From Eutreptiella sp. 'Long Island Sound 2002' (taxonomy: Eukaryota > Euglenozoa > Euglenophyceae > Eutreptiales > Eutreptiaceae), in assembly GCA_964036045.1 (NCBI GenBank), contig OZ038381.1:135872306-135936305 (forward strand): DNA of 64,000 bases, in the 5' to 3' direction. Positions 1-63,617 of this stretch are shown in pieces. How positions within the stretch are numbered: position 1 is the stretch's first letter; each line of letters opens with the position of its first letter. Below the pieces are notes generated by a model. The model was given only the letters and a program-made list of their open reading frames with translations. It was not told where the DNA came from and made no database searches. A program made the translations under genes and the position numbers.

Positions 1-580
1 AGGGGTAAGGGCCAAAGCCCCGCCCCAAAGCCCTCCCCCAAGCCATCGAAGGTGGCAAAGGTGGCGGCGGCCCAGCCCCCCCATGAGGCCCTGGACGTGG
101 AGGCCTTGGGGGCCAGTGTGGCCACCCACGTGACGGACGCTTGCCCGGTTTTGGTGGAGCAGGCGGCCGCCACGGGGGTCGAGGCCGCACTGGCCAAGGG
201 TCGGTCGGCCGACCACAAGTCGGCCTTGGCGAAGGCCGAAAATTTTAAAGGCCCAGGGCAACACCCAGCGTGCCCTGGACCAGGCCCTCAACCTGGCCGC
301 CAAGAGGGGGGAGGAGGTGGAGGCGATGAGGGAGGCCCTGAGGGAGGCCCAGGAGGGGAGGCGGAAGGCGGAGGTGGAGGCGGCCCAGCTTAGGGTGGAG
401 GTGGAGGGGCAGCGGAGGAGGGGGGGTGACCTTGGGCAGCGCTTGGGGGTGGCTGAGGCGCAGGTGCGCAGCCTCACCTCCACCCTCTGTGCCTCCTTCG
501 GGGTGCAGCAGGCCCAGCAGGGGCTGGCGCCGCAAGGGGTGCAGAGTCAGGGTAGCGGGAGTAGGAGTGGGAGCCAATGA
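1..580 (+). pseudogene. Coiled-coil protein of element A, C-terminal part, frameshifted
   Basis: The window opens inside this gene. Frame 1 reads an Ala-rich stretch to about base 240, then the reading moves to frame 2 around the run gaaaattttaaagg and continues as a heptad-rich Ala/Glu/Arg helix (LREAQEGRRKAEVEAAQL) with a Gln/Ser/Gly-rich tail ending at TGA 578-580. The helix resembles the C-terminal coiled coil of the proteins at 27001-28431 (minus) and 54713-58687, and like the latter it lies just upstream of a TET-like gene. The N-terminal beta-rich domain would be off the left edge. No enzyme motif is visible. A role in oligomerisation or binding the family palindromes is inference from shared gene order only. 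Confidence 0.5.
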
Positions 581-583
581 CTA

Positions 584-1183
584 GTGGATTTGCTCAAGGG
601 GTTGCCCAAGGGCATTTTTCGTTGGGAGGAGCGATATGGGGCCCAAGTGGACATGTGCCACTTTGGCCTCGTGGGAAGTGGAAACCCCAACCCCTCTAAT
701 TTTAGGGCGACCCACATGGCCGCTGCTACCCTCAAGCCTGCCCTCACCCCCTTGGTTGCAGACCTCAATGGGTATTGCACCTCCAATGCTCCACCATGGT
801 TCACATGGTGTAGCATCCAAATTGTTCGCCCCCAAGGGACGGACACCATGGGCCTCCACTCCCATTTGCGGGATGGGGCGCCCATGGCGCTTATTGTGTG
901 TGTGGGGTCTTTCACGGGGGGTGAGTTTTGGGTGGAGAGTGGTGGCCTGCTGAATCCCTCCTTGAGGGAAAAAAAGCGGCACACCCGTGTGTGCAAGGGT
1001 AGGGCGGTGGAGGGTTGGGCATGCACCGCCACCCCCCAAGCCCCGGTGTTGTTCAACACCGGGGCACTACACGCTCCATTGCCATGGGAGGGCGAGCGAT
1101 GGAGCGTGATTTTTTATAGTGCGGGGGGGGGTTCTGCACTGCACGCCTTTGTGGCGGCAGCAGCTGGTGTCCATGGGTTTTAG
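584..1183 (+). CDS. TET/JBP-like 2OG-Fe(II) dioxygenase domain, element A
   Basis: Open frame of about 199 codons ending at TAG 1181-1183. The frame opens without ATG; the first ATG is 653-655, so an upstream exon or a lost start is likely. The sequence has the usual order of the TET/JBP double-stranded beta-helix: a WCSIQI strand, a histidine motif (LHSH), then VGSFTGGEFWVESGG, and finally ALHAPLPWEGERWSVIFYS, which supplies the distal His and the Arg expected to contact 2-oxoglutarate. Active members of the family oxidise 5-methylpyrimidines in DNA. Here the acidic residue of HxD appears as His, so activity is doubtful. It follows the coiled-coil gene by 3 bp, and a homologue sits at 58908-59330 in element B. 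A generic 2OG dioxygenase of another class is the alternative. Confidence 0.55.
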   Translation: MDLLKGLPKGIFRWEERYGAQVDMCHFGLVGSGNPNPSNFRATHMAAATLKPALTPLVADLNGYCTSNAPPWFTWCSIQIVRPQGTDTMGLHSHLRDGAPMALIVCVGSFTGGEFWVESGGLLNPSLREKKRHTRVCKGRAVEGWACTATPQAPVLFNTGALHAPLPWEGERWSVIFYSAGGGSALHAFVAAAAGVHGF

Positions 1184-1449
1184 GGTGCCCAATGCTTCCT
1201 CTAACCCCTCCAGTTAGTGTAATTTGTGATTCGATTATTGTTCACTCTTTCTATTACTGTACTCTTTGGACTCTGAGGAGGGGCAACTCGCCCGGAACAT
1301 GTCCTTTTGACTGATTTGAATTTGCGATTGTGGCGCCATGTACCCCGTGCCTGCACATCGTTGACATCTCCAAGGTTTCCTGGGTGCAAAATCAACGTTT
1401 GTGAAGGTCTTAGGGTGCCCAACGCTTGCTCTAACCCCACCAGTTAGTG
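1181..1449. repeat. Pair of 39-bp direct repeats (1181-1219, 1411-1449)
   Basis: Both copies read tagggtgccca followed by a CTCTAACC(C) core and end in cagttagtg; five positions differ by eye. They bracket about 190 bp with no convincing gene and precede the TTATCGCG array of element A. They may be transposase or promoter sites, but nothing more can be shown. Confidence 0.6.
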
Positions 1450-1625
1450 CGCACTAACCCCTGCTCTAACTATTTATCGCGGGGGTTATCGCGCTCTAAC
1501 TGGGTGCTCTAACTAGTTATCGCGGGGGGTTATCGCGCTCTAACTAGTTATCGCGGGGGGTCATCGCGGGGGTTATCGCGCGATAACCTAGTTATCGCGG
1601 GGGTTATCGCGTGGGTTATCGCGTG
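1450..1625. repeat. TTATCGCG/CGCGATAA palindrome array, upstream of A transposase
   Basis: Multiple copies of ttatcgcg and its complement, some forming the full palindrome ttatcgcgcgataa, mixed with ctctaact words. The same array lies downstream of this gene (3418-3530) and upstream of the A dioxygenase genes (41400-41540, 49093-49240, 51480-51545, 62856-62960), which marks it as the signature repeat of family A. Each site holds CpG steps. Confidence 0.8.
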
Positions 1626-1687
1626 TGTTTTTTGGGCCCTTGCTTCAAAACCCTCCCTCATTTCGTGCCCAGGTCCTCTTATTCGTC

Positions 1688-3347
1688 ATGGACAGTGCTG
1701 TCAATGAGGCCCTGCGGGCTCTCAACACAGCTAACCTGCGGCGGTACACCGATCTGCAGTGCCCCAAGGCCCGGCGGCGGCGTTTGAAGGCGGTTCAGCG
1801 GCTGGTGCGAGTTCTATTGGGTGACCCAGACGTCCTGTGTGGCACCAACACCAAAGGCGAAGTTTGTTTAAGTGGTGGGGCGTGCACTGCCCTGTCTGGC
1901 CCACTTGGCGGCCATCTTGCATTAACAGCTCAGGAGCATGAGGCCCTGAGCATGCTACGCATGGCATGCAGCATGCATCTCTCCCAACGGGCCCTTTTGT
2001 GAATGCCCCGCCGTTGCACACAACGGGACCTAAGGACCGTTCGGCAACGGATCATGCCCTACTTTCCCCAAACCACCATTGTAAAGTCTACCACAGGCCG
2101 CAATAGGGCAGCTGCCCATGTGCCTTTGCAATCAATTGTGCAAAATGCAATATCTATGGCCAGAGTTATCGGGAAACCCCCCCCTAGTGGCGTTGCCATT
2201 GTTGTTATTTCAGTTGATGCGACTTCCTTGTGGAAGGCATCCTCCACCCGTGCGGATGTATGGGTTAATGTATGGGGGGGGGGCAAAATATGCTTCGAAG
2301 GTGAAGCTATGGGCCTCATGGTTTTGCATGGATGGTGGGGATGAACAGGCTTTTTTGAGAAGCCTGGACATCTCCGCCAACCTCAACCAAGAGGTGAGGG
2401 ATGTGGAAGAGGACGTTGTCCTCTTTCAAAACCAATTTTTGACTTGCACTGTCATTTTGACAGGGGATGGGAAGGGGATGCAAGCAATGGGGGGGGCTCG
2501 GTCTAAGTGTTGGTTGTGCAAAGACCCCAATGGGATTGTTGAGCAAAGGGGGGTGGAGTCCACCTCAAGATGGGGGGCATTCTTGAGAAGTGTAACCCCT
2601 GATAGGCGGCCGGGGGACTACCAACATGCAGCATGCCGCATCCTAAACGGCATTGCAAAGCGCATTGAGACCACCCTTCAGGCCCTCCCCCCTGGTACCC
2701 CTGGTAAGGCCCAAGCTCTTGCAGCTTTGCAGGCCTTCAAGCAAGCCCTCAAGGATGAGACCTCAGGCATCCCTCTTAGGGAACGCCTCCCTTCGGCCTC
2801 GAGGGCCACAAAAAAAGATTTTGATCTAACCAGCACCAAAGTTTTCCTAACCTCCCCCCCCTTCCAAAGGCAATTTGTGGATTGCCTCAAAGAGCATGTC
2901 CCCACAGTGAGGACCCCTGGGGGACCTATGTTATGGGTTGTTGTGCATGTCATGGGGAAATGCATTGAGGGTTTGTATGAGCTTTGGAGGGTGAGGGAGT
3001 TGTACACTCTAACCCAAGTGGAACGCCACCGTGCGTTGACCACAAAATTTTCAAAAGCGTGGGGAGACTCAGGTTGGTCCCCCACCAGGTGGATCCATTG
3101 GTGCTTGGCACATTCCACCTTTTTTGCCGAGAAATGGAGGAACATTTTTCAGTTTTCCTCCATCCCAACGGAGTATCGGCATGGGCCTTACAAGAGGAGG
3201 CTCAAAAATTGTTTTAAGGGTTGGTCCTTGGTGAGGCCAAGTATGTCCCTCCGCCACATGCACCATTGCATGTCCATGAACGCCCTGGAGCAAGGGCTTT
3301 TGGGACTGGAGGCAGCCAAGGCCTCAGACATTGATGACTTTGTATGA
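1688..3347 (+). pseudogene. DDE-type transposase-like protein, element A
   Basis: Starts at ATG 1688 and ends at TGA 3345-3347, about 550 codons. It is broken by an in-frame TGA at 2000-2002 and by a frameshift in the G-run near 2273-2282. Candidate catalytic residues are Asp in VISVDATSLWKAS, Asp in TGDGKG followed by a CxxC (CWLC) about 12 residues on, and Glu in SSIPTEYRHGPYKRRLK near the C terminus. The gene at 60700-62291 aligns along the whole length, including VICSDATAF, VDGK...CWNC and IPTEWRNKSFK. The layout suits an RNase H-fold DDE transposase with a zinc-binding insertion. Kyakuja/Dileera/Zisupton-like (KDZ) elements are a candidate relative because they too travel with TET/JBP genes, but I cannot test this. 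The gene lies between two TTATCGCG arrays. Confidence 0.55.
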
Positions 3348-3417
3348 AAAAAGACCATACATGCTTTGTGCCAAATGGTTTACGTTGTTTGTCCTAGTGA
3401 GGGATGGAGGAGGGGTG

Positions 3418-3530
3418 CGCGATAACTACCCGCGATAACTGCGCGATAACTAAGTTATCGCGCGATAACTAGCGCGATAACTAGTTAGAGCAAGGTGCTC
3501 TAACTGCGTTCTAACTCTGTTCTAACTGTG
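3418..3530. repeat. TTATCGCG palindrome array, downstream of A transposase
   Basis: Runs of gcgataact and ttatcgcgcgataac followed by repeated gttctaact/ctctaact words. It mirrors the array at 1450-1625 across the transposase gene. Confidence 0.8.
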
Positions 3531-3696
3531 TTCTAACTCTTTGACCCCCCCCCCCCAAAAACCACCCCTACAATGAGGGTTATGTGGGGAAAGAAAGGGG
3601 ATGGGGGGTTTTTGAGGGTGCCGAATCCATTTTTTTAGGTGGTTTGCCCCAAAATTGAGGGTAGGTGGGTGTTCCAGAAATTGCGTTCTAACTAGG

Positions 3697-3730
3697 GGTT
3701 CCGCACCACGCCCTAGAACGCTGCATCCCA
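3697..3730 (-). repeat. Right terminal inverted repeat of element A
   Basis: On the minus strand it begins TGGGATGCAGCG and matches the left ends at 41220, 48918 and 51284 over 34 nt with about four differences. Base 3731 resumes a PB intron (ttctggatgcacgtc, also at 7791), so element A ended here after inserting into PB1. Bases 3531-3696 match the subterminal DNA inside the left ends in inverted form. Confidence 0.75.
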
Positions 3731-15570: not shown

Positions 15571-15869
15571 GGTGTGCTTGCTTTTTTTTTCCTTTGTTTA
15601 TTGGCAAATTGGACGAAATTCACCTGAAATTCGTACGAAACTCGTACGAATTTCACGTGAATGAATGTACCTGCGGCTCACTTGGAAATGTGAAGTTGGG
15701 GCTCAGTTGGAGCTAAAACGGCTCATTTGGAGCTAAGTGGTGTTTTTCCAGGGGTTTAATGTGAAAACTTGTGGCTTTCGGGGGTGGGTTGGGGTTTTGG
15801 AATGTCCCCAAAGGGATACCAATCCCTAGGCCAAGAGGATTTCACCGGGGGGGGTTTCTTTTTTTCGAC

Positions 15870-16027
15870 GGCTCAGTTGACTGAGCACCCCGACTGAGCC
15901 GTCACTGAGCCGTCACTGAGCCGGCTAAGTGAGCGCTCAGTGAGCGCTTAGTGAGCGCGCCAAATGGCTCAGTGAGCGCTCAGTGAGCGCTTAGTGAGAG
16001 CTAATTGGGGGCTCACTCAGGGCTCAC
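15870..16027. repeat. GAGCGCTCA array, D left end
   Basis: Tandem units such as cactgagcgctcagtgagcgc with a period near 11 bp and variants (gagccgtcactgagccgtcac). Similar arrays lie at 26355-26530, 28720-28800 and 31131-31260. This is the signature palindrome of family D. Confidence 0.85.
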
Positions 16028-16412
16028 TTAACATGCACGGGCCAAATCATCCATCATAAGCACGTACTTGGTCCTTTGTCGCAATGCACGTTCCACAAGC
16101 CTCCTCACCATGTTCTCTCTCCCCTTCCTCTCCCGCCGGGCACGTGACCAAGTCATGCACCGTCGTTGGAACCCCCTTTGCTTGGTCACAGCCCTACTCT
16201 CCACCTCCCAACCTTCCTTGCGGAGGTCGTCATCTAGTGAGTGGTTATCCACCACACACTGCAAGCCCGACCTATCATTCAGGCAACTAACCCCCCCACT
16301 ATTCCTAAGCATCCGTTTCAGTCGCACATGGCTGCCCTCCAATGCAAAGCAACTAAACCTTGCAATGGTCCCCCACCGTGCAACATACGCATACATGTGG
16401 TCAACTCACATG
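16028..16412 (-). pseudogene. DDE-type transposase, D family, C-terminal part
   Basis: Minus-strand frame ending at 16028. DHMYAYVARWGTIARFSCFA LEGSH aligns with the C-family transposase at 33900-34020, including the E..H..LKRMLRNSGG segment that probably supplies the catalytic Glu. It then reads VVDNHSLDDDL. The 5' edge at 16412 is the PB insertion; the rest of the gene resumes at 24439. At the join the codon expected to be Trp is TGA. Confidence 0.65.
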
Positions 16413-48831: not shown

Positions 48832-48917
48832 CCGACTGGCGCAAGACCATCAATTTGGAGATACGCGTGATTACACAGAGGTGGCGACCGAAGTGAGTGT
48901 CAACATCTCCAACTACA

Positions 48918-48951
48918 TGGGATGCGCTGTTCTAGGGCGCGGTGCGGAACC
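48918..48951 (+). repeat. Left terminal repeat of element A (unit 2)
   Basis: Identical in the 34-nt terminus to 41220-41253. Confidence 0.75.
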
Positions 48952-49092
48952 CCCCCAATTTTGGGGGTTGTTAATATGGTTTGAACACAGAATTTCACAT
49001 CTTACATGGGTGCACTATGATGCAACAATGTGCCTTGCATGTCTCGTTTGCTCGATATTGCCCGTTTTGCACTTTTTGCGATTTGGTCTTTT

Positions 49093-49240
49093 TGTGCCCT
49101 AACTAGTTGGAACGGGGTTAGAGCACTAGTTATCACGGGGGTTATCGCGCGATAACCTAGTTATCGCGGGGGTTATCGCGCTAGTTATCGCGCGATAACT
49201 AGTTATCGCGCGAGTTATCGCGTTGGTTATCGCGCTTCTT
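49093..49240. repeat. TTATCGCG array (unit 2)
   Basis: Twin of 41400-41540 with a few substitutions, upstream of ATG 49293. Confidence 0.8.
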
Positions 49241-50198
49241 TTTCTCTTCTTCCATGTTTTCCCCCTTCGTTGTAGCTCTCAAATAATCTACAATGGCCCT
49301 TGCTGCTGCCCACGCTTGGTGCGAGCACCATCAAAAGCTCCTTGGGGTCCGTCTCCTTGGCGGTCTCGAGGGGTTTACGATGGGTGACATGAATGTGAGG
49401 TGCCCGGTGGCGAGTCGTTTTGAACATGGTGGGGACTTTGGACTCATCGTCCATAAGTCCCCCTTCATGGCCGATGAGAAAGACCCCCTGCTTCTCAGCA
49501 ACTACATCTTGGAGTTGCTAGAGGTAAATCCACGGGTTGCTGCCTTTTTGATCCAGCTTCATCCGGAGGATGTGGACGCGGTGTTGGAGTCCGTCACCGC
49601 CCATGCCAAGAAGGGTGCGGGGACGAAGACGACCCTGTATGTGGGTCAGGAGGAAGAGATGGAAGTGGAGGAGGAAGTGGAGGAGGTTGTGGAGGTGGGG
49701 GCTAGGAGGGGGAAGGACAAGCCCGACAACCACCTCATGATTAGTGTCTAGAAGGTAAGGATCTGCCCTCGTAAGGGGAAGGGGAAGTCGGATGGTTGGT
49801 TCCCCCAACCCCTCACCCACAACACGCGGCGGGTCTGCACCGACGACCCCGAAACCAAGCTACCCATGCACTCCCTTTGCTCCACAAGGGAGTGGGAGCG
49901 TGAGTAGTATGGGGTCGCCACTCCCAACATTATTTCGGGGCAGGGGGTGATTCTTTTTTCTTTTGTGGTGGTGCGGGGGGTTGGGTGGGGCTGCACCATT
50001 CTTGACATGGCCGAAATTTCGAGCTATGACCACACCCCCCAGCACCTCCATCGTGATGCCCCTCCCTCCACTGTGCCCGAAGGCACATTGATTGTCTATT
50101 CCCTCATTATGCTCACCCATAATCATGAGGCCGAGGATGGGTCGCATTTTGTTTTTGTGCCCTCTAGTAGTTCGGGGTTCCCTGACCCTTGGGTGGAG

Positions 50199-50602
50199 CC
50201 CTGGACCCTTGCTTGCCTTTGCCCGAGCCGCCGCTCGGGCGGCTCGAGCAGCGGGAATCGAACCTGGGACCAGCGACGCTGGCGTCCAGGGTGCTTCCAC
50301 TGAGGCACGCGGCGCTGCAACCGTTCAAGGACGCGTGAGGGACTGGAGGAGGGATGCTCAGCTTTACCCAACCTTCCCACACCGCGCTTCGCTTGGGCGC
50401 CATCCATAAGAAACCAAGTGTGCCTAACCGGATGTATGTGGAGTGGACACGTAGTAGTAGTATGTGGGAAAAAGCCATTGGCTTGGGCCTCAGCACATTG
50501 CATGGTTACGACCACTACGAACTGATTTGTGCGGAGCCGGATCCTTTGAGCGGGGGTACCCGGTTAGCCAAGTATCAGTCTCTATGCCAGCCTTGGGTGG
50601 AG
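50199..50602 (-). mobile_element. 404-bp insertion with 12-bp target duplication
   Basis: Present in unit 2 and absent at the same place in unit 1 (42498). Flanked by ccttgggtggag (50187-50198 and 50591-50602). A GC hairpin (gcccgagc cgcc gctcgggc) is at 50221-50240. Size, direct repeat and internal pol III-like boxes suggest a short retroposon, though no A-tail is seen. Confidence 0.65.
50254..50307 (-). promoter_or_regulatory. tRNA-like box A and box B
   Basis: On the minus strand TGCCTCAGTGG (50307-50297) matches box A with one difference, and GGTTCGATTCC (50264-50254) matches box B exactly; they are about 33 bp apart. The acceptor stem does not pair, so this is not a functional tRNA gene. 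It may be tRNA-derived. Confidence 0.6.
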
Positions 50603-51283
50603 AGGACTGTGCCATTCAAGAGGGGCACTGCCTTTTTTTTAATGCCCTTGATGTTCACCGGGGGTCGGGCATTCCAAAGGCCTCGCCCACTGGTGTGACC
50701 CATCCTCGCCTCATGGCATTCTTTGCAATTGAGCTAACCCAAGGCCCTAATCTTCGATTCCCCAACCTGCATGTCACCCAGTCCATCAAGCGGCCCCAGC
50801 TGGGGGCACCTGGTGGCCGGGTGGCCAAGACCGTCCCCTGTGAGGGGGCGGTTAGGTGTAGGGGGAAGGTCGTAGCCAAGTGCTATGGCTGCGACAGGGC
50901 GGCCTTCTGCGCCGCCCACAAAGATGGCCTTTTTGTGCCATGCTAGGAGGGGGAGGAGCTGGAGGGGGGGGAGGAGGAGGAGTTGGTGGAGGACCCCAAT
51001 GGGGTTAGCATTGAGCAATGCGCTGCGTGCTTCCTCCCGGTGGGAACAACCACCGGGCATTTTTTGTTGTCGGGGTGGGGGGATGGAAGGGAGCTGGTTG
51101 CCCCCCTCACTAATGAGGAGGTGGGGGGGGTCGCAGGCCACCCGATCAAGGCCCCTTGGCCAAGGTGTGCCATGGGGAGGCACTGCGCTGGCCCACCTTG
51201 CAAGGGCATGTGGGGATTAGTGTGCCGCCGGGGTGCAACAACCTAACACAAAAAAGGGCACTTGCACTCGTTGTTCACTTGAA

Positions 51284-51317
51284 TGGGATGCGTTGTTCCA
51301 GGGCGTGCTGCGGAACC
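51284..51317 (+). repeat. Left terminal repeat of a third A copy
   Basis: TGGGATGCGTTGTTCCAGGG, diverged from the unit 1/2 copies. It starts the A element interrupted by B at 51546; a TTATCGCG array follows at 51480-51545. Confidence 0.75.
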
Positions 51318-51754
51318 CTCCCAATTTCGGGGGTTGTTAATATGGTTGGAACCCGGACTTTCACATGTTACATGGGTGCACGATGATGCAGCAATGTGTC
51401 TTGCATGTCTTTTTTGCTCGGTATTGCCCGTTTTGGACTTTTTGCGATTTGGTCTTTTTGTGCTCTAACTAGTTAGAACGGGGTTAGAGCACTAGTTATC
51501 GCGGGGGTTATCGCGCGATAATTTAGTTATCGCGTGGGTTATCGCTATGGTGAGCATAACGTGGCATACCAGGAATACCTGGTAGTATCCGGGTAAAAAA
51601 GGGGGTTTTGGAAGAAAGGGGTATGTGGCATGTGCAGGTGGCTACTAATGTACAATGCACAACGCATGCATAGGTGAGTTGGGGAATACCTCTGGTTTGC
51701 CAATTATGATGATCAATGTTGTATTTGAAAGTACCCCATTTTGGGCTCTTGGGT

Positions 51755-51830
51755 TATACGGCCGTATACTCAAGGCTCCAATACCTCAGTATACGGCCGT
51801 ATACTTAGAGTATACGGCCGTATACTGGGA
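51755..51830. repeat. GTATACGGCCGTATAC sites, B left
   Basis: Three palindromes with GGCC cores at 51760, 51795 and 51816 (spacings 35 and 21 bp), upstream of the dioxygenase start. Confidence 0.85.
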
Positions 51831-52055
51831 GTATTTGTTTGCACCACGTGGTTGTTTCAAGTTGAAAAATTCCATTGTTGTGCCTTTTGTGCCCATCTTC
51901 TTGCATGCTTTGCCTTTGCCAAACAATTGCACACCACTTGAAACCAATCTAGGCTCATACTTGACTCATGATTGCAATGTATGTCTCCACATGTGTCCAT
52001 TTCAATCCATATTATGTTGCTTCTTGCTCTCCTAGGCCCTATTTTTTTTTGCACC

Positions 52056-53578
52056 ATGACTGATGTGGGCACTCATGCCTTGCTCAAGAAGTGGGCCGAT
52101 GCCGTAGCTCTCTGCACGGGGCACAGAGGTGTGTACAGCCCCGAAAGCACACGCACTGTGTCTTGGGCTTCTCTTGAGAATTGTGCTTGGTCCACCTTGG
52201 ACACCCCTGTGGCCCTGGTGAAGCTAACACAACGCGTCGACAGCGATCCCCAACCCCACAACCTCACTGACCCTCTTTTGTCGTTGTTTGACAACAACCC
52301 TAACCTGCAAGCTATTGTGCTGCAGCTCCATGACACGGATGCCCGCGCTGTTGCGGAGCACGTTAAAAAAAGCCGCGGGGGACCAAATAGGGGGATGAGT
52401 TTGTATTTGAGGGAATGGGAGATGCCGGATGGCACTCTGGGGATTCACGTCTCGGGGGACGTGGCTGCTGGCTGTCGCAAATGGGAGTGCAAGGCCCATC
52501 AAGTGCAGCGGGGGCATTGGGAGGACACCGCCCCCCTCTACTCCCTCCACTCCCAATCGCCATGGTCCTGGCATGCCGATTTGGAGGGCCACACCCCCCC
52601 CACCTGGTACAAGGGGACCGGGATGCACCCCTCCCTTTTCTTCCCCCTCACCACTGCCCCCCTTTTTGGTGTTGAACACCATCATGTCTCCATCTCAGTT
52701 GAGGTCGTCGATCATCGTCATGTTGACGAGCTCAAGGATTTGCCCCAATGGGGCCATGCTTTCCAAAGTGGCTTCATTTCTGTCGATTGGATGGAGAAGC
52801 TTCAGGATGAGTATGGGGAACTTAGGGGGGATGCGGGGGTCAATATCTTGAATGAGGATTGGCCCGCCGAGACTCGTGCAGGGGACAGTGACACCCTCCT
52901 CATGGCGATTCCACCGGAGGGGGGTGCAATGTACAGTTTTGCAAGGGCGGTCCTTATACCCCACTTGGAGCCTCATTTGGGTTGGAAGCGTCCGGTCGTG
53001 AATGTCACCACCTGTATTGTGGTGAAGGCCGGTACAGTGGATGTGGGAAAAAACAAGTGTGGGCACCGTGACATTAACCTCAGCTATGTTACCGGTCCGG
53101 ATCAACACCATGTTATTTGCTTGTTCCCGATGTTCAGCCCCACACCCGATGATGGTTGTGCTGGGGATTGGTGGTTGCATCACACACGGGCCTCCCGAAC
53201 CCTTGGGTTGTGGCCCCATTGGTCCCATTGGACATTGGGGATGTGTTGTTGGGCAATACACTTGTTGTGCATCGAGGAGGTATTTGCCCTTCCACTAACC
53301 CCAATCGGCCGCCTGTTTTCGGTTTCATTTCAGTTGGTACCTCAAGGTTCGACTACAACAACACTTGCCCCGTTGTTGTTCCCCCTTGGGCCGGCAAAGC
53401 GACCGCATCCCCCCATGGGTCTCAAGCCCCTCATGCCACTTGTGGTGCAGTCGGTTGTGAGGTGATGCTGGATGTGAGTGATGATACCACAGTTTTTTGT
53501 GTTACATGTCGTAGCGTGCCATTATGTGCCGCCCACAGCGTGGAGGGGCAGTGTGGAGCCTGTCAGGAGGACGCTTGA
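52056..53578 (+). pseudogene. 2OG-Fe(II) dioxygenase with Cys-rich end, element B
   Basis: ATG 52056 (MTDVGTHALLKKWADAV), preceded by an acceptor-like ctctcctag. About 360 codons are open: LFDNNPNLQAIVLQLHDTDA matches element A, then KCGHRDINLSYVTG gives the HxD-type motif. A frameshift near 53155 moves to the frame carrying IGDVLLGNTLVVHRGG (distal His) with NRPPVFGFISVGTSRF, then the zinc-like CGAVGCEVMLDV...CVTCRSVPLCAAH...CGACQ, ending TGA 53576-53578. With the frameshift bridged the active-site residues are all present. First gene of B, as in A, C and D. Confidence 0.6.
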
Positions 53579-53593
53579 AATCGGGCTGAGACA

Positions 53594-54184
53594 ATGACGC
53601 AACACACTGGTGTTGCGTGGGGTCGTTGTCCGGCCCCATTTCAGTTCTTGATGCCCGTTGATGGGGCTACCCTTTTTGCGATCCATGAAAATTTGAGCCC
53701 CTGCCCCCTTCGTGTTGATATTGAGGGTCATCCTTCATATGAGGAGTGCCAATTGCGGCAAATGCATGCTAACCCCTTGCCTTGTGTGGGCTCCGATGGG
53801 ACTTTCCTTGCTTGTCCCCCCGGTTCATTGGTGATTTTGCGGGGTTTGATTGGTGGTGTTGCTTTGGCTTTCACCGATGCCACAATTGGCGGGCTTTTGC
53901 ACTGGTTTGCTCTTGGGCACAAGCACCACCTCATGGATGTTGCACTGCCGGACAGCTACGGTTGGGTGAAGTGGTGGCCATTCAAGGCCATCCCAAGAAA
54001 GAAGAAGTCGAAGCCAAAGCCCAAGCCAAAGTCAAGGAAGGGCAAGTCTAAGGAGAAGGCCGGGGAAGAAGTTGAGGACGTGGAAGAGGAAGAAGAGGAG
54101 AAGAATGAGCAGTGGTGCATCTGCAATCAGGTATTTGTTGTGGGCTGTGGGCATGGGTGGAAGTGTGTTGTTGTTATTCATTAA
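53594..54184 (+). CDS. Unknown protein with Lys-rich and acidic tail, element B
   Basis: 196 codons from ATG 53594, 15 bp after the dioxygenase stop. N-terminal 140 residues look globular (VILRGLIGGVALAFTDATIG, HWFALGHKHHLMDVALPDS). Then a strongly basic KKKSKPKPKPKSRKGKSK stretch, an acidic run, and WCICNQ at the possible exon end before GTATTT (54130), which recalls the start of a PHD finger but is not completed. Intact frame. No homologue seen in A, C or D here. Function unknown. Confidence 0.5.
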   Translation: MTQHTGVAWGRCPAPFQFLMPVDGATLFAIHENLSPCPLRVDIEGHPSYEECQLRQMHANPLPCVGSDGTFLACPPGSLVILRGLIGGVALAFTDATIGGLLHWFALGHKHHLMDVALPDSYGWVKWWPFKAIPRKKKSKPKPKPKSRKGKSKEKAGEEVEDVEEEEEEKNEQWCICNQVFVVGCGHGWKCVVVIH

Positions 54185-54414
54185 GTGTCATTCATTTCAA
54201 AAGGTATGGTCACCGGTGGTTTTTTTTGGTTTGCCTGTCGTCAGCCCCTCTCTACATGGTTGCGGTTCTTCGGGTTGAATTTTTTTTGACTTCTTCGCAG
54301 CATTTTTCAATGGCCTACACACATTGCATGTTTGAGGGCAGTGGGGTTTGAAGTAGGGACGTTGCGTGCGCAAGTGTAGCATGCATACCTCTCACCCACC
54401 AGGTGCCATGGTCT

Positions 54415-54600
54415 TGCTATACGGCCGTATACCTTGTGTATACGGCCGTATACCCTCGGTATATTGCCGTATACTCCCAGTTTACGGCCGTATACCGCGA
54501 GTATACGGCCGTATACCTGCCCACCCATTCCGTGTATACGGCCGTATACTCGGGGGTATACGGCCGTATACTGGGGGGTATACGGCCGTATAGTCATAGT
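54415..54600. repeat. Phased GTATACGGCCGTATAC array, eight sites
   Basis: GGCC cores (one is TGCC) start at 54423, 54444, 54465, 54486, 54507, 54540, 54562 and 54584: spacings 21, 21, 21, 21, 33, 22, 22. It lies between the unknown gene and the coiled-coil gene. Bases 54185-54414 hold nothing else recognised. Confidence 0.9.
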
Positions 54601-54712
54601 ATTTGTTGCCAGTTTCAATCCATTTTGACTAGTTCTTTGTTGGAATTTCACCCTTTCTTCCTATGCAGGTTCGGTATGATCCCTAGCACTGCGGAGCATC
54701 ACTGATTACGAA

Positions 54713-57700
54713 GTGGCTGAGCCCCAGGTGGAGTTGTTGGCGCCGAGGGCTGCCGCGGGTCAAGTGGTCTCCGGTCGGGAGTACGAGGAACCAATAGCCC
54801 TGGGGCGCTGGGATGTTGCCAGTGCCCCCTTTGACCTGGCATGCAGCACGGGCAAGGACACTGGGTACTATTACCGACTGAATGTCCTTGATATTCGACT
54901 GCCCATCAGGGTGGTTGCAATTCTGAAGGAGGGGGTATTTGAGGCCTTTTGGGGGGCTGCAGTGTGGTCGAAGAGCTCGGGGAAGGTGCGGGGTTTTTTT
55001 AGCACCACGGGGGAAACATGGAGCATTTCGGACTCCATCATGGTGCTCCAAAGTTTTGGGGGGGAGCCTGTCCCCCCGGAGCAATGCCAGGCACTCCAGG
55101 CCGAGTTGGCCGCGAGGGCTGGAAAACACCTTGGGGGGAGGGGAGTGAAGCGGGCTCATGATGAGCCCGTTGAGGTGAGCGCCACCCCTGCAGCCCCCCC
55201 CACCCGGAAGACCCTAAGCCTTCTGGCTCTGCTGCTGCTGCTGTTGCTGTGAGCTCGGGGGGGCTTGGGGGGGTTGGGGGAGTTGGGGGGATTGAGGCGG
55301 CTGCCCGCCGTGGCGCATGCGAGGCCTTGGGGGACCTCGCTGTGCCAACCACCACTGACATTGTCCGTGCCGTGGTGGCGGGCTTGGGGAAGTCCCGGGA
55401 ACATCTCCAAGGAGATTGGGGAGTTCAGCTGGACTTCCCTGACCTCCTTGAGGGAGGCCAATGCCTCCCTCAAGGAGGAGCTGAAGGTTGCCCATGCTGA
55501 GGGTGACGCCAAGGATAGGAGGATTGTGGACCTGGAGGCCAAGTTGGCTGAGGCCACCTCAAGTGCCCATGCGTGGCATCTCCCCTTGGTAGACGCTAGA
55601 ATACCCAATCTTGTTCTAGCCTAGAACCCGCTAGAGCGGCTAGAATGAAAAAAAGTAGTGGTTGCCCCGACCCATGGGCATATGGGGGTGGGGGTATGAA
55701 GGGTGCAAATTGGACCCCTATTACCATACTACGGGGTCCATACCTTGTTTTTCAGAAAAAGAGATTTTTGACCCAAAATTCAACAAGTACAAAAAACCGT
55801 TCTAGGAATGTTCTTGCAGGCGCTCTGGCGCTCTAGCGCCGCCCCGCTAGAACGGCGCTAGAACGTCACTGGAACGCTTCGCTAGAACAAGGCTAGAACA
55901 AAAACATGCACACACATTTGGCAAGTGAAAGACACCAATGTGGGAAGGGGGGGGGTTCCATGACACATAGACACATACAAACCACCGCACTTGGTACATG
56001 TCTAGTCATATGTGCGCGTGGACACACACACAAACACACACACACACACACACATGCACGCACACATTTTGACATGGACACGGGCACTGTGGGGCTGCCC
56101 TCCCTTCAAGCGTTGGTTGGGGGGGGGCGTCTTTGCTTTTGTCACACATTTTTCGGGGGGGGCTTGAGAACTACCTTGGGCGGGGGGGGGGGTTGAACTC
56201 AGGGGTCCGGGAGGGTGTTCTTTTCTTTGTCTCACAGGTGGTTTTTTATTGGATTTTTTGGATATTCGACCGACAAACTGCAATTTCAAGTCGTAGGCAT
56301 GCCATGCAATGCTGTGCAGTGTTGTGGTGTGTTGTGGTCTCGTTAGGTGTAAAGTGGTGTGGTGTAGTGTGGTGTGGTGTGGTGTACTGCGGTCTGCTGT
56401 AGTGTGTGATCTGCTGTGGTGTGTTGTATTGTGCGGGGGGTGTAGTGTGTTGTGGTCGCATGACGTGCCCTGTGGTGTGTTGTGTTGTCATGTGGTGCGG
56501 TCGGGTGTCATGTGGTGTGGTCTGGTGTCATGTGGTGTGGTGTGGTGTGGTGCGGTGGGGTATCGTGCGATAGGGTTGCCTGTTTGGTTTGTTGAATGGT
56601 GTGTTGGTTGCTTGGCCGGTTGGGTTATTTGGCTCCTTGGGGTACTTGTTGGGTGTTTGGCTGGTTGGGGCACGTTGTGTGGTGTCTTCACCTTGTGGTG
56701 TGTTGTGCTGTAATCCGTTGTATGCTCTGTAATGTCATGTGTGTGGGTACCCATGTAATTACTGCCATTCCAAGGGACGGGGGGGGCTAATAAGCAGTTA
56801 CTATTTTTGTTCTAGCGGCGTTCTAGGGAACTCTTCTAGCGGCGTTCTAGCGGCCGCTAGAGCGCTGCTAGAACAGCTCCGGCGAACGCCGCTAGAACAA
56901 AATTATTAACTGCTCATCAGCCCCCCTCCCCCCCGCCTCCCTTGGAATGGCAGTAGTTACATGGGTACCCAGAGACATGACATCACAGAGCATACAACAG
57001 CATACGGCACCACACACCACAAGGTGCAAACACCACACAACGTGCCCCAACAGGCCAAACACCTAACAAGTAACCTAAGCTGCCAAATAACCCAACCTGC
57101 CAAGCAACCAACACACCATTCAACCAACCAGATAGGCAACCCAATTGCATGATACCCCACCACACCACACCACACCACATGATAACGTGTTGTAGTCTGT
57201 TGTGGTGTGTGATATGCTTTGGTATGTAGCTACGTTGAGTTGTTTGGCAGCTTGGGTTATTTGTTGGGTGTGTAGCCCTTTGGGGCACCCTGTGGCGTGT
57301 GCTGTGGTATGCTGTTGTATGCTCTGTGATGTCATGTGTGTGGGTACACATGTATTTGCTGCCATTCCAAGGGAGGCGGGGGGGCTGGTAAGCAGTTACT
57401 TTTTTTGTTCTCGGGGCGTTCGCGGGAACTGTTCTAGCGGCGTTCTAGCGGCGCTCTAGCGGGCAGCTAGAGCGCCGCTAGAACGGCGCTAGAACGGTTC
57501 CCTAGAACGCCGCTAGAACAAAAATGTTAACCACTTACCACCCCGCCCCCCGCCCTTGGAATGGCAGTAATTACATGTGTGCCCACACACATGGCATCAT
57601 AGAGCATACAACAGCATACCACAGCACACACCACAGGGTGCAGACACCACACAACATGCCTCAACCGGCTAAGCACCCAAGAAATAACCCAAGCGGCCAA

Positions 57701-58687
57701 ACAACCCAACTTGCCAAGCAACCAACACACCATTCAACGAATCACACTAACCACACCACATGAAAACACATCACACCACAGCGCACGTCGTGAGACCACA
57801 ACACACTACCCCTACACACAGTACAACACACCAGAGCCAGTCACACACTACAACAGACCGCAGCGCAGCACGGCACACCACATCACACCACACCACAGGA
57901 CACGAGGCCACAGCACATGACACCAGACCACACTACATGAAACCGCAACACACCACAGCACACCTCATGTGACCACAACACAACACACCACGCCACTACA
58001 TAGCACAGCACACCATAGCACATCATACACCACAACATGCTACAACACAACACACCACACCACTTTACACCTAACGAGACCACAACACACCACAACACTG
58101 CACAACATTGCGTGGCATACCTGCAACTTGAAGGTTTGTCAGTCGAATATGCAAAAAATGCAATAAAAAACCACCTGTGAGACAAAGAAAAGAACACCCT
58201 CCCAGACCCCTGAATTCAACCCCCCCCCCCCCACCCAAGGTGGTTCTCAAGCCTCCCCTGAAAAATGTGTGACAAAAGCAAAGACGCCCCCCCCGCCAAC
58301 CAACGCTTGAAGGGAGGGCAGCCCCACAGTGCCCGTGCCCATGTCAAAATGTGTGCGTGCATGTGTGTGTGTGTGTGTTTGTGTGTTGATGTGTGTGTGT
58401 GATAATTTGTTTGTTGTGTTGTACCTAGGCTATTATATCGTTCTAGTATTGATCTAATCTAGGCTAGAACATCTAGGCTAGAGTGTTCTAGGCTAGAACA
58501 AGATTGGGTGTTCTAGCGTGTACCAAGGGTCAAGGCCAAGGAGTTGGAGATGCAACTCCAAGCGGCCAAGGCCAATGAGGAACGGTCAAGGTCCATTGTT
58601 GCCCATAGTGTCACACGGTCTCCACCCCCACCCCAAGGGTGTGGTAGTCAGGGAAGTGGGAGTCAGGGCAATCAATCCGCCTGCCCA
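54713..58687 (+). pseudogene. Beta-rich plus coiled-coil protein, element B (split by F)
   Basis: The frame is open from about 54695 (TDYEVAEPQVELL) without an ATG. Beta-rich part: YYYRLNVLDIRLPIRVV, FEAFWGAAVWSKSSGKVRGF. The frame changes in the C-run near 55195 (giving AAARRGACEALGDL) and again near 55410. The coiled coil (SLKEELKVAHAEGDAKDRRI) runs into element F at 55592; after F, PRVKAKELEMQLQAAKANEE continues in the same frame. It ends with Gly/Ser/Gln-rich text and CPACGLPRKPA at TGA 58685-58687. Same place and build as the D and C genes. Confidence 0.55.
55592..58519. mobile_element. Element F: nested fold-back, 2.9 kb
   Basis: Ends share ACGCTAGAA(T/C)ACCCAATC in inverted orientation (55593 on; ending 58519); flanks GTA on both sides. 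Outer arms about 56064-56370 and 58050-58358 are complementary. Inside are two smaller fold-backs (56690-56785 with 56938-57030; 57290-57385 with 57540-57640). GCTAGAAC/GTTCTAGC palindromes cluster at 55805-55885, 56810-56905 and 57415-57525. Long TG and CA runs fill the arms. No credible gene. Confidence 0.8.
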
Positions 58688-58907
58688 GCATGTGGCCTGC
58701 CCCGAAAGCCGGCATGACTACCCCCTTCCAACCCCGCCCTTGCAGCTTTGTCCTGAGAGCTGGTGTAACGCAAGGTGCACATCTTGGGTGTACAAGTGCA
58801 CAATGTGCAGTTTGGGGCTACAGGGACATGCAGGCAAGGGAACGATTGGCTCTGTGCGCGCTTGTGCAGCGGGAATGAAAGGCAAAGGGAGCTAATTTGC
58901 CTTTCAA

Positions 58908-59330
58908 ATGCACATGCGCATGCAAATTTTCCAAGGTGGTTCCATTGGTCCACCATTCAAGTGGCACAATGCAGTACCTCACAAGAATGCCGGGGCATCG
59001 CCATACGAGGGATCCTTCTCCGCTTTCCGCCATTTGGTTGTCGGGGCGCATAGTGGAGGGGAGGTCTGTGTTGAATCTGGTGGAGTGCTCCATAGTCCCA
59101 CGCAAGGGACCCCGATGCGGTTGGATGTATATGGAGGTGGTGTTGTGGATGCGAAAGCCTACAAGGGCTGGCCGGGACTGGTTTTTAACTCCAAAGCCTA
59201 CCAGGGGCCTGCCCCGTGGAGGGGGGAGCGCTATGGCATTGTTTTCTACAATGGTTGCAACACAAATTACCTCCCTGATGAATCTATTGAAGAGTTATTT
59301 GCCTATGGCTTTCGTCCTTTGGGCCACTAG
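58908..59330 (+). CDS. TET/JBP-like dioxygenase domain, element B
   Basis: Open to TAG 59328-59330; the 5' part (58690-58907) seems to lie in other frames, so the gene may be broken or spliced. Core: VPHKNAGASPYEGSF, VVGAHSGGEVCVESGG, and FNSKAYQGPAPWRGERYGIVFYN. Compared with the A gene at 584-1183, GG-E...VESGG and PW-GER--IVFY are kept, but the HxD acid is Asn and the distal His position reads Tyr/Gln. It is therefore probably inactive as an Fe(II) oxygenase, at least as read. Same neighbour order as in A: after the coiled-coil gene and before the transposase. Confidence 0.45.
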   Translation: MHMRMQIFQGGSIGPPFKWHNAVPHKNAGASPYEGSFSAFRHLVVGAHSGGEVCVESGGVLHSPTQGTPMRLDVYGGGVVDAKAYKGWPGLVFNSKAYQGPAPWRGERYGIVFYNGCNTNYLPDESIEELFAYGFRPLGH

Positions 59331-59350
59331 GGAGCACCGTATACTACTGT

Positions 59351-60128
59351 GTACCCTTCGTGAACCGGCCGTTTGAATCCGAGATTCACGGTACCGTGAA
59401 TTTCAAAACTTTTTGCTGTGTTTTGCTCGTAACTTGGTGCCATCGTGTGCGTTTCTCGTGCTATCTTCGCCCAAAGTGAGATCCAACAAATGTGTGCAAA
59501 TTAGAGGTTTAAAGTAGCCACATGATTCAACACATTTGGTGAGATTCCGTCGAATCTGAAAGTCAGGCACCCAAATTCACACAGAAATTCACGCTAGGTT
59601 CACAGATTCACGAGATTGTGAAATTCGCACAAAATTCGTATGAATTTCGTACGAATTTCGTACAAATTTGCCCCAATTTCCACTGTTTCGCTTTTTCACA
59701 GCTCTCAAAGCCTTTTTTTGCATCTTCTTTTGACAATGTCCGAGCAGACCTTGTTCCAGCTCGCCCGCCTTCGATCCCGCCCCGATCCCGCTGCTGACAC
59801 CCTCGCCCACTACCAAGCCCTCCCCGTCGTTCACCACCAATTGGAGGAGGCGACCTAGCAGTTGGGGGCACTGGGGGTGGACGAGGTTGTTGGCTGGGTA
59901 GCATCCCTCGACCCCTCCCCGGATGTGATTCACATCGACCTGCGCAGCCCCACCCACAACTCCTATCTTGGGGGGAAGGCCTGGGCCACAAATTTGTGGA
60001 GGGAACTCCGCCGCCAACTCCCCTCCCTTAAATTTTTGCATCTGACCCCTCAACCCGCCACCATTAACCAACTCCTCAATTCCATGTGCACTAACCCGGT
60101 GGGGAAGCCTAAGGACGCCCACGTCTAG
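59351..60128 (+). pseudogene. C left end with 5' part of the C dioxygenase gene, inside B
   Basis: TGTACCCTTCGTGAACCGGC at 59351, C leader and array (59610-59670), ATG 59735 (MSEQTLFQLARL) with TAG at 59856-59858, and reading on to TAG 60126-60128 (GWVASLDPSPDVIHIDL, WRELRRQLPSLKFLHLTP). It keeps the part deleted in the copy at 13867. The C right end is missing; the fragment decays after 60240. Confidence 0.7.
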
Positions 60129-60239
60129 GTGTACCCCACCACTAACTTTGTGTATACCCCCCCCAATTGCGACATGGTGGGCCTCCACGATCTTTCTGCA
60201 GGTGCCCCATCTGACCACTCCTTTTTCCCCTTCTCCTGG

Positions 60240-60430
60240 CACCTTGCTATGCAAGATTCAGCGCAAACTGTTCGCCGTATGCTTCCAGTGTACGGCCGTA
60301 TGCTGACAGGTATACGGCCGTATACTCGGAGGTGATGTCGGGGATGTGCACCTGTGGGGGGATGGAGGGATGGAAAGGGGCGATGCCCAAAACCTCCCAC
60401 CACCGGGGGTGCGCACGGTTCCATTGGGCA
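60240..60430. repeat. Rearranged C gene piece around B palindromes
   Basis: Forward C sequence stops at ccttctcctggcacc (60241). B palindromes follow, with GGCC-type cores at 60273, 60294 and 60316 (spacing 21 and 22). Then 60332-60420 is the reverse complement of C sequence at 14161-14255. So an inversion or fold-back has occurred here. Bases 60430-60699 contain an open stretch (YLESIQEFCDGIKRRQL) of unknown origin. Confidence 0.6.
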
Positions 60431-60699
60431 ACTGGCCCACATATGCGTGGAACATGTTTGCGCAGCACTTATTCACACAACTATGTTTACGAATGCCCAT
60501 CCGAAGGAGAAGGGGCTCTACTTGGAGAGTATTCAAGAATTTTGTGACGGAATCAAACGCCGGCAATTGACCCCCTTTGCAGTATGTGATTTGCATCTAC
60601 AAACGTCAACGCCACCACATTATTTTGTTTCACATCATATGGCCCACCTTGATTTTTTTACATTAGGATTGTGGGGAAAGAGGACAACGGCAAACACGT

Positions 60700-62291
60700 T
60701 TGTGGATGCAATCGGTAACATCAACATTGCTTGGTGATGATGTACTTTTACGACCCCATGCCCAAGGCCTGATGATTCTTTTACAAGATGGTGAGGTAGA
60801 TGCGGCCGACAAGGAGGCAATTAACCTACTCCGATGGATGCGGCGGCACCATCTTGCCATTCGGGCATTGAAAGGTTGCATGAGCACAACATGCACTTGT
60901 GACCATGTGATGGCAATGCGTAAGACGGTCACACCTTACCAGTCCAAGGGCAGGGTATAGGAGGTGGCCGCAAAGGGGGTACGCGGACATGTGGGGTGGT
61001 GGAATTGCATGATATCATCACCACCATGGTTGCATGTGCCCATGCTGAGGACAGCATTCCGAAGTATGAGGAAAATACATATTTGGCTGTTGTAATCTGT
61101 TCTGATGCCACTGCTTTTCACAATGCCAGTGCCACGCGCTTTGACGTGCTTGTGGACCTGTGGGAGGATAGGTGAGCACACCATGATGGTCAGGCGTGGG
61201 CCTCATGGTGGGTTTTTGATGGGGGGGATGATATGGCCCATCTGCAAAGGATGGATGCCGTGGGGAAAGTGAACGACCAAGTCAAAAAACTTGAAACAAA
61301 GGGCGGCATAGAAATCGGGGGAACTCCCAAAAAATTGTTGTGTTTCAAAAGTGTGGACGGAAAAGTCATGATGTCGGGTTCGTGTGGGAAATGTTGGAAT
61401 TGCAATCTCAAGCCTGACCAATTCCAAGCCCATTTATTTGCAATTGCAGATTTTCCAGTGCTTGCTCGCATTGGCTCCCTTATGTCTTGCATCCCTCCCG
61501 TCCGCAATGTTGGAGAGGTGGCACATTGTTGTGCAAGGGTGGGGATAGGCATTGGGAAACGTCTCAAGGACAGTGCCCGCACATGGGGCTCACAAGGAGC
61601 CCTAAGGGCCGTGTCCCATTTCATTTCTAACCTCCAACAAGAGGCGAAGCACATCCTTGTGGCCGAGAGAGTGACGCGTGCTCCCTTGAAAGCGAAGGAA
61701 GACACTCTCGACATTAACGCCTTCCGCCTTTTTTTTGAAACACCTGAGTTGCACGCCGAGTTGGTGCGCATTGTTGCAATGTATTGTGCCCATGTTGTGA
61801 CGTGGGAGGGCAACAAGTGGCTCAGAACCAGTGCCGTCCTGCACCTCATGTTGCAGGCCTGTTACTATGTGCAACAGATTTGGCGCCATGTGGGTCATGT
61901 TCCCATGGATCAACGTCAACGTTATGCATGCATGGTTGCACAATTCACCAAGGCATGGAAAGCACTGGGCTGGAGTGTTCCTGTCTGGGTGCATTGGGTG
62001 GTGTGCCACAGTGGTGCACACCTCCAAAGGTGGGGTAATTTTATTAAGTTGTCCTCCATTCCCACGGAATGGAGGAACAAAAGTTTTAAAATGGATATCC
62101 GCCGTTGTTTTCAAGGGTGGAAGCTGAGCAAGCCTTGTGTCACCCGATGGGGACTAAGGCATGCTCTGCACCTGGATGCCCTTGATTGGGGCATCCGTTT
62201 GTGGTTTGGGGAAAAGGGCTTGGGTAGAGAGGGGATGAGGTTTGGCATGCAACGCATGCGGAAGAAGCATCGTGCACCAAAACACATGTAG
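60700..62291 (+). pseudogene. DDE-type transposase-like protein, element B
   Basis: Reads DKEAINLLRWMRRHHLAIRA in one frame, changes frame near 60955, then VVICSDATAFHNASATRFDV (first Asp), TGA at 61173-61175, and an open frame from 61176 to TAG 62289-62291. Further blocks: VDGKVMMSGSCGKCWNC (second Asp plus CxxC), a helical middle (ISNLQQEAKHILVAERVTRA), YVQQIWRHVGHVPMDQRQRY, and LSSIPTEWRNKSFKMDIRRC (Glu). Full-length homologue of 1688-3347. The element B ends should be its substrate. Only two lesions separate it from an open gene. Confidence 0.6.
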
Positions 62292-62544
62292 GTATATATC
62301 ATATGATATGATATGATGTGCAATATGCATAAGTATGTATATTAAGTATATATCACATGCATAAGTGGATCCCATTTGACATTTCGGATGGGACATCAAA
62401 GAAGGATGCTTCTTGTGGTCTTTTGCTTTGCTCATATGGTGCTCTTTTGTGTGGACAATGTTTTTGGGGCTTGGAGAGTCACGAGTACTTGCAAGGGGGG
62501 GGGGGGGGGTACTTGATGAGAATGGTGGCATGGGTGGAAGGTTC

Positions 62545-62625
62545 AAAGTCCCCGTATACTCCAAGTATACCGCCGTATACTTCCGAGTGTACGGCCGTAT
62601 ACTCCGAAGTATACCGCAAGAATAC
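62545..62625. repeat. GTATACGGCCGTATAC sites, B right
   Basis: Cores at 62550 (CCCC), 62571 (CGCC) and 62593 (GGCC), spacings 21 and 22, plus related gtatacc words. They mirror the left array. Bases 62292-62544 hold a short catatgatatg repeat and no gene; 62626-62821 nothing recognised. Confidence 0.8.
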
Positions 62626-62855
62626 TTCTCCAATACTTCGAGTATCCTGACAAATACCTCAAAAAGTGTAGACTGCCACACACAGGTGTGGGTGTATGGA
62701 ATCGGCTTGGTGGTTTTTTGACCCTCTCCGCCCCTATTTTCAGGGTGCTAAACCCATTTTTTCATATCCCGTGGGCACACGGAACGACTAGATACATGTG
62801 ACAAAATGGCTGTTTTTGGGGGGTATTCTTGGTATGCCAGGTTATGCTCACCATA

Positions 62856-62960
62856 GCGCTAGTTATCGCGCTATAATTAATTATTGCGCGAGTTATCGCA
62901 TAGGTTATCGCCCTTCATTTCTTCTTGTTCCATGTTTCCCCTCTTCGCTTTAGCTCTCAA
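62856..62960. repeat. TTATCGCG array, A copy 3 (resumes after B)
   Basis: gcgctagttatcgcgctataat and gcgagttatcgc words followed by the A leader (cttgttccatgtttcccc) and ATG 62971. Confidence 0.75.
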
Positions 62961-62970
62961 ATAATCTACA

Positions 62971-63617
62971 ATGGCCCTTGCTGCTTCCCACGCATGGTGC
63001 GAGCACCATCAAACGCTCCTTGGGATCCCTCGCCTTGGCGGACCCGAGGGGTTTACGATGGGTGACACCACTGTGAGGCGCCCTGTGGCGAGTCATTTCG
63101 AAAAGGGTGTGGACTTTGGACTCATCCTCCACAAGTCCCCCTTCATGGCCGACGAGAAGGACCTCCTGGTTCTCAGCAACTACATCTTCCAGTTGCTAGA
63201 GGTAAATCCAGGGGTTGGTGGATTATTGATCCAGCTTCATCCGGAGGATGTGGTCGCCGTGGTGGAGGACGTCACTGCCCATGCCGAGAAGGGTGCGGGG
63301 ACGAAGAGGACCCTCTATGTGGGTCAGGAAGAAGAGGAGGAAGTGTCGGAGGAAGTGGTGGAGGTGGAGGAAGTGGGGGGGTGGGAGGGGGAAGGACAAG
63401 CCCCACAACCACCTCATGATTGGTGTCCAGAAGGTAAGGATTTGACCTGGTAAGGGGAAGGGGAAGTCGGATGGTTGGTTCCCCCAAACCCTCACCCACA
63501 AAACCCGGCGGGTTTGCACCGACGACTCCGAAACCAAGCTCCCCATGCACTCCCTTTGCCCCACAAGGGAGTGGGAGTGTGAGTGGTATGGGGTCACTAC
63601 TCCCAACATTATTTCGG
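62971..63617 (+). pseudogene. 2OG dioxygenase-like protein, element A copy 3, truncated
   Basis: ATG 62971 (MALAASHAWCEHHQTLL), open for 160 codons through VNPGVGGLLIQLHPEDVV and an acidic tail, then the same frame change seen in units 1 and 2. Similarity stops at 63617 (cattatttcgg), before the HxD region. Diverged from units 1/2, so it is an independent copy. Confidence 0.65.

Follow-up and report, generated by a model that had tools for sequence, protein, structure and literature searches.

Repeat families and gene order in the window

The window analysed here is a 64,000-nucleotide stretch of a 180-Mb contig (OZ038381.1, positions 135,872,306 to 135,936,305) in the 2.28-Gb genome of Eutreptiella sp. 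'Long Island Sound 2002'. It is a nest of repeats, from which comparison of the window with itself by BLAST and of its open reading frames (ORFs) recovers four transposon families, A to D (Table 1). Several of them keep a fixed order of a large gene 1, a coiled-coil gene 2 and a transposase with VDxT, DGK...CxxC and E...K motifs, read on the minus strand in A and on the plus strand in D, and in B and D a TET/JBP-like frame lies between gene 2 and the transposase. This common order had been proposed in a preliminary description of the window and is retained, the window copies themselves being broken and nested: D lies inside B, an inverted repeat interrupts D gene 2 and the A transposase is split. 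The sequence of B breaks off at 51547 and is taken up again at 62854, the B copies at 41219 and 48917 read across the D insertion point, and a palindrome at this point differs by a few bases between B copies. Also, judging from gene order, A probably jumped into C, because C gene 1 (14146-15106) and gene 2 (32036) flank it. In genome copies B is complete, with four genes on the same strand, and D, whose transposase is ~29% identical to that of B, has the same plan.

At the sequence level, the homology among the families is that of two pairs, A-C and B-D. Profile comparison with hhalign relates gene 1 of A to that of C (E 1.2e-20) and gene 1 of B to that of D (E 1.8e-5), and the same is observed for the transposases (A-C, E 3.3e-51; B-D, E 2.6e-34). 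Direct comparison of transposase profiles across the pairs gives 0.0015 for B-C and is not significant for A-B (0.031), A-D (0.02) and C-D (0.073), and the A and C transposases connect to those of B and D only via outside relatives (A-tpX, 1.8e-4; C-tpX, 9.2e-7). Gene 1 of A has no significant similarity to that of B by profile comparison (E 0.46), and for gene 2 the one homology seen is that between A and C (tblastn, 33% identity, E 2e-7), no pair among the families being significant by hhalign. Of the three genes initially described as homologous throughout A to D, gene 1 and the transposase divide into the two pairs, and the coiled-coil gene is related within A-C. Moreover, the TET-like gene, first assigned to A and B, was found in B and D; a profile built mostly from B found none in A or C in a six-frame search of the window.

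Transposase fold, ends and genome copies

The B transposase is modelled as a RAG1 core, metal and zinc residues included, its predicted fold being RAG1/Transib. CxxC and H-x4-H are present in P0064 and in the B, D and C sequences, and the A transposase keeps CHCC and the second H, the first H not being seen. Both ends were located in 18 of the 20 B regions fetched from the genome; a perfect target duplication of 2 bp, comprising several dinucleotides, is observed in 16 of these (the exceptions are L024 and L037) and one of 3 bp in none. The termini are TGGGATGC..GCATCCCA in B and TGGTGAGC..GCTCACCA in D, whose terminal inverted repeats (TIRs) at 51548 and 62853 have TA on either side. For A, a 185-bp TIR is found at ~15841 and ~31290, and no target duplication was identified at these approximate ends.

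The 2 bp in B and the TA at D correspond neither to the 5-bp duplication of Transib proper nor to that of Kyakuja-Dileera-Zisupton (KDZ) transposons, which is 7 bp in Kyakuja and 8 bp in Dileera/Zisupton (PMC12730594). In fungi, KDZ transposons are accompanied by TET genes (PMC12730594), and the available part of PMC8226300 mentions Kyakuja and Zisupton for Chlamydomonas and its relatives. Nonetheless, membership in KDZ as a branch carrying TET, a reading suggested by the comparison made in the preliminary description, is extremely improbable, because the RAG1/Transib fold, the C(2)C-H(4)H arrangement and the 2-bp duplication already contradict it.

The B transposase P0004 has 7740 first-look places in the genome; the best 79, which were scored, are all 99-100% identical and 78 are without internal stop, figures that say nothing on decayed copies because the best matches were scored first. 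Among 13 B copies of 6.6-7.1 kb analysed further, 12 are 99.3-99.7% identical to the majority, and L022 (81.5%) apparently carries foreign sequence. Copy L027, of 7109 bp, contains gene 1 (388-2517, 709 amino acids (aa)), gene 2 (2721-3963), the TET-like frame (to 4599) and the transposase (5070-6728, 552 aa); its gene 2 has one frame shift, and P0143, which stands for 219 sequences, gives a frame of 413 aa. The D transposase has 5330 first-look places, and among the best 110, which were scored, many keep a 541-aa open frame. The genome-wide search proposed earlier yielded complete B copies with both ends and all genes, and the elements look, as had been suspected, like autonomous multi-gene transposons with two oxygenase-like genes.

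As side observations on B, its copy L027 lies within a CCCTAA-type telomere-like repeat (flanks at C7:79200780 and 79207890). Also, the ORFs P0002 and P0136 fuse gene 1 with the transposase or the TET-like domain in one frame; they are apparently internal deletion derivatives of B and might yield chimaeric proteins.

The oxygenase-like genes and the UGA-CUA junction

Judging from sequence, gene 1 likely encodes a 2-oxoglutarate (2OG) oxygenase, which is not proven. An HxD...H metal triad is found in gene 1 of A (HID...H(RG)) and B (HLHRD...H(RGSG)), falling in register within an alignment that is itself not significant, and the C-terminal part of the B protein is cysteine-rich. The best match to PF13640 is that of P0136 (E 4.1e-4; 21.7 bits vs 27 for gathering), the others lying at 0.076-0.13; the Pfam check suggested for the first genes gave a family match only below threshold.

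The TET-like domains of B and D are homologous (hhalign E 3.1e-9), and the distal H and R are present in both. The segment FTGGEFWVE...LFNTRALHAPLPWEGERWSVIFY resembles TET/JBP enzymes, a likeness that has no tool support.

The end of gene 2 in B reads ...AGC CAA TGA CTA GTG..., with the TET-like frame following in the same phase. The junction is contained in 17 of the 20 fetched regions, the other three being shorter, internally deleted copies; it reads TGA CTA in 16 of the 17, as in the window copy, and TGA GTA in one. For D, among 14 junctions (12 of 20 small pieces, copy L041 and the window copy), 12 read TGA CTA, one TGA CTG and one AGA CTA, preceded by CAA save for GCA in the window copy and L058. 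In L041, on C1, the 387-aa frame of gene 2 ends in CAA TGA CTA CCC and is followed by 204 open codons through the whole domain, with no in-frame Met ahead of the HxH motif; for B, a start at the first in-frame ATG would omit a conserved beginning. The junction 9-mer is the same in L027 (B) and L041 (D), and the adjacent 30 nt match at 6 and 5 positions on the two sides, which is the chance level; three further 9-mers are common to B and D within 150 nt, none of them in register. What is found is, then, a UGA CUA context with conserved in-frame coding sequence downstream. According to the available part of PMC4359377, UGA CUA is a high-readthrough consensus in human cells and works best when G stands at +7, with 144 human candidates carrying UGA CUA and 30 carrying UGA CUA G; the B junction has this G. 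In the older B-like proteins P0106, P0107 and P0115, sense codons replace the stop, so the fused frame exists without a stop in some copies, which has no bearing on function.

Proposed reading and its alternatives

The transposon structure, the RAG1-type transposase and the in-frame stop in a leaky context are established. The reading that we consider marginally probable as a whole assigns B and D, plus A and C in reduced form, to the RAG1-related (CMCT) clade of DNA transposons; in it, readthrough would fuse gene 2 to the TET-like domain, and base modifications would be removed or altered under the targeting of gene 2 and with the aid of gene 1. UGA readthrough would produce the fusion as a minority product. 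Gene 2 is predicted to bind the palindrome arrays of the element (TTATCGCG; CpG-bearing in B), and by doing so would carry the oxygenase to the element's own ends, where the TET-like oxygenase and gene 1 may remove or alter modifications that otherwise silence the element or block the transposase. The oxygenase-like genes would perhaps counter host chemical silencing of element DNA. A bolder form of this proposal, in which a RAG1-fold superfamily uses programmed UGA-CUA readthrough to make small amounts of a fusion of its coiled-coil end-binding protein with an unusual three-histidine (HxH...H) TET-like oxygenase, aimed at CpG-bearing palindromes and with gene 1 completing the pathway, is tentative and, in our view, rather improbable; if true, a DNA transposon would here produce, through translational recoding, an epigenetic eraser directed at itself.

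Several observations weigh against this proposal. PF13640 is found at E<=1 in only 4 of 16 gene 1 members and above gathering in none, and the intact gene 1 of L027 matched no family in a Pfam scan. The TET/JBP identity of gene 3 is not proven, being a motif resemblance only: PF12851, the Pfam TET/JBP model, was unmatched in P0109, P0137, 23 A4 members, the D domain in two pieces and the window ORFs; the domain model has a predicted local distance difference test (pLDDT) score of 42 and yielded no usable structural match; and where TET enzymes have HxD, HxH is found (HSHLRD in B, HRHMRD in D), neither HxD nor HxE. At the junction, the window copy of D has GCA before the stop, the open frame of D comes from a single genome copy, and no stimulating 3' RNA structure is found (z -1.63 in B and +0.63 in D, a B control stretch being better at -2.46). 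Finally, a mutational test for 5-methylcytosine is mixed, since CpG sites change faster and transversions also rise in all five comparisons. The CpG transition excess is a little or clearly larger in X1-X2 (at CpG, transitions 9.6% vs 5.8%; transversions 7.1% vs 6.4%), in the tandem units (transitions 6.1% vs 2.8% elsewhere; transversions 4.0% vs 2.4%) and in B2-B3, and smaller in comparisons with B4; in B3 vs B4 the transversion rise at CpG exceeds the transition rise.

The HxH motif and the lack of a detected TET-like gene in A and C would also fit degenerate passengers, with a dead or structural domain and no catalysis. This is a real possibility, if still an unlikely one, because the domain is present in clusters of near-identical sequences, with 235, 69 and 29 members, the B and D domains are still alignable, and the region has a ratio of nonsynonymous to synonymous polymorphism (pN/pS) of 0.47-0.49, on only 15 variants.

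Two other routes could express the TET-like frame. If an intron led from gene 2 (or gene 1) to an acceptor immediately past the UGA, the frame would be reached without readthrough, either in a fusion or on an mRNA of its own; candidate acceptors are present, CTAG directly after TGA in B and TTGCAG ~30 nt downstream in D. However, the sequence upstream of the B CTAG is purine-rich and makes a poor acceptor, and B and D would need different acceptors, yet the stop context CAATGACTA is common to both while its flanks are at chance identity; moreover, uninterrupted frames are seen for genes 1 and 4 in L027 and for gene 2 in P0143. We therefore regard splicing as unlikely. Quite unlikely is a separate TET-like protein, made from an internal or non-ATG start by termination-reinitiation after gene 2 stops at the UGA: an in-frame ATG (MCHFG) lies ~24 codons downstream in B and another ATG overlaps the stop (CAATGA), but the latter is out of frame and the first in-frame Met of the D copy sits at HxH, so that such a protein would lack its N-terminal half, a part that can be aligned between B and D.

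Other features of the window

The segments 35133-42846 and 42847-50950, 95% identical, form a direct tandem duplication of 7.7 kb in which parts of C, of a piggyBac-like element and of B are copied together. The element between C and B has a piggyBac-type transposase fragment at 38113-39300 (+), with a copy at 45816-46661 (PF13843, E 1.1e-12). A family of acidic lysine-rich genes, ~32% identical between places, is found at 22037-23476 (-), 4390-5154 (+) and 8384-9616 (+), apparently from an element inserted in the A transposase and downstream of B copy 1. The 2.4-kb inverted-repeat insertion at 56022-58400 within D gene 2 is absent from L041, and a large inverted repeat at 9890-13336, with arms of <=909 bp and ~93% identity, is AT-richer than its surroundings. 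Arrays of the palindrome-like unit AATTCGTACGAATT at 13743-13816, 18397-18578, 19161-19289, 33487-33635 and other places in the window look like a subterminal motif common to several elements.

Table 1. Coordinates of transposon features in the window
Feature	Coordinates	Strand	Remarks
B copy 1, 3' part	1..3730	+	ends in right TIR ...GCATCCCA, mirror of left TIRs at 41219, 48917, 51283
TGA CTA junction, B gene 2/TET-like frame	578..583	+	
B TET/JBP-like frame, ~200 aa	581..1180	+	in frame with gene 2
B RAG1-fold transposase	1688..3344	+	frame broken near 2280; tblastn of P0004; intact 552-aa copies elsewhere
C gene 1, decayed	14146..15106	+	homologue of A gene 1; tblastn E 2e-10, hhalign E 1.2e-20
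Family A element, approximate ends	15841..31290	-	185-bp TIR alignment; further ~8-kb insertion inside
A transposase, C-terminal part	16067..16411	-	
A transposase, N-terminal and middle part	24500..25931	-	
A gene 2, beta region and coiled coil	27004..28722	-	ORF of 573 aa
A gene 1, probable 2OG-Fe(II) oxygenase	29034..31022	-	HID...H; PF13640 E 0.076, below gathering; relatives P0094-P0105
C gene 2 fragment	32036..32338	+	tblastn to A gene 2
C transposase, C-terminal part	33774..34244	+	internally deleted copy
C transposase, tandem copy 1	35707..37285	+	copy 2 at 43420-45045
B copy 2, 5' part, left TIR	41219..42846	+	gene 1 from 41685
B copy 3, 5' part	48917..51282	+	gene 1 at 49380-51051
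B copy 4, left end	51283..51547	+	interrupted by D; resumes at 62854
Element D	51548..62853	+	TIR TGGTGAGCATAAC..., TA duplication
D gene 1, in pieces	51972..54181	+	N-terminal half homologous to B gene 1, hhalign E 1.8e-5
D gene 2, interrupted	54680..58714	+	inverted-repeat insertion 56022-58400; 387-aa uninterrupted frame in L041
TGA CTA junction in D	58715..58720	+	GCA TGA CTA in window copy
D TET/JBP-like region	58721..59327	+	decayed in window copy; open in frame in genome copy L041/L062
D RAG1-fold transposase	60667..62288	+	

Comparison with known systems

Transib elements have 5-bp duplications and CACWGTG ends, in which they differ from B and D, and we know of no oxygenase genes in Transib or RAG-like (RAGL) transposons. 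In the TnpA-TnpD system of En/Spm (CACTA), a second protein next to the transposase binds subterminal repeats and counters promoter methylation. The likeness is that of a second protein beside the transposase, DNA binding by gene 2 being predicted only, and to our knowledge TnpA has no counterpart of the oxygenase-like domain.

The carriage of TET by the RAG1-related clade is not new, because fungal TET genes have already been described on ESTA, EnSpm and Plavaka (PMC12730594). The fungal TET-bearing CMCT elements (ESTA, EnSpm, PlavakaB; Kojima 2025, PMC12730594) share with those described here the transposase residues D, D, C(2)C, H(3-4)H, E and short target duplications; some of the fungal elements carry a gene for a TET/JBP-type dioxygenase, and ESTA transposases resemble RAG1. 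The present elements differ in their TGG..CCA termini, in 2-bp duplications of several dinucleotides, whereas ESTA has only TA, in a second oxygenase-like gene, in a coiled-coil gene with an in-frame UGA-CUA before the TET-like domain, and in HxH instead of HxD or HxE. The CMCT terminus rule is worded by the source itself as 'in most cases' (PMC12730594). Plavaka (lineage A), compared by description only, is alike in its 2-bp duplication and T..A-ended termini (TGT..ACA), and all TET-bearing Plavaka families are placed in lineage B (PMC12730594). In the open-licence literature searched, neither an element with two oxygenase genes nor a UGA-CUA TET fusion was found, which is weak evidence of absence; the initial description likewise knew of no family with two oxygenase genes in this order.

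These results place a large group of transposons, recently active and carrying oxygenase-like genes, next to RAG1/Transib and not within KDZ, and HxH would represent either a novel metal centre in a TET-like enzyme or a sign that the domain turned structural. Because a recoding-type signal is conserved precisely in two diverged families, a readthrough-made, targeted base-modifying enzyme also becomes a testable hypothesis. The closest parallel for this signal is type II readthrough in alphaviruses, LDHB and AQP4, in which, within the available part of PMC4359377, a UGA CUA(G) context likewise precedes an open downstream frame; here, known from sequence alone, it occurs in DNA transposons and would extend a coiled-coil protein by a whole domain.
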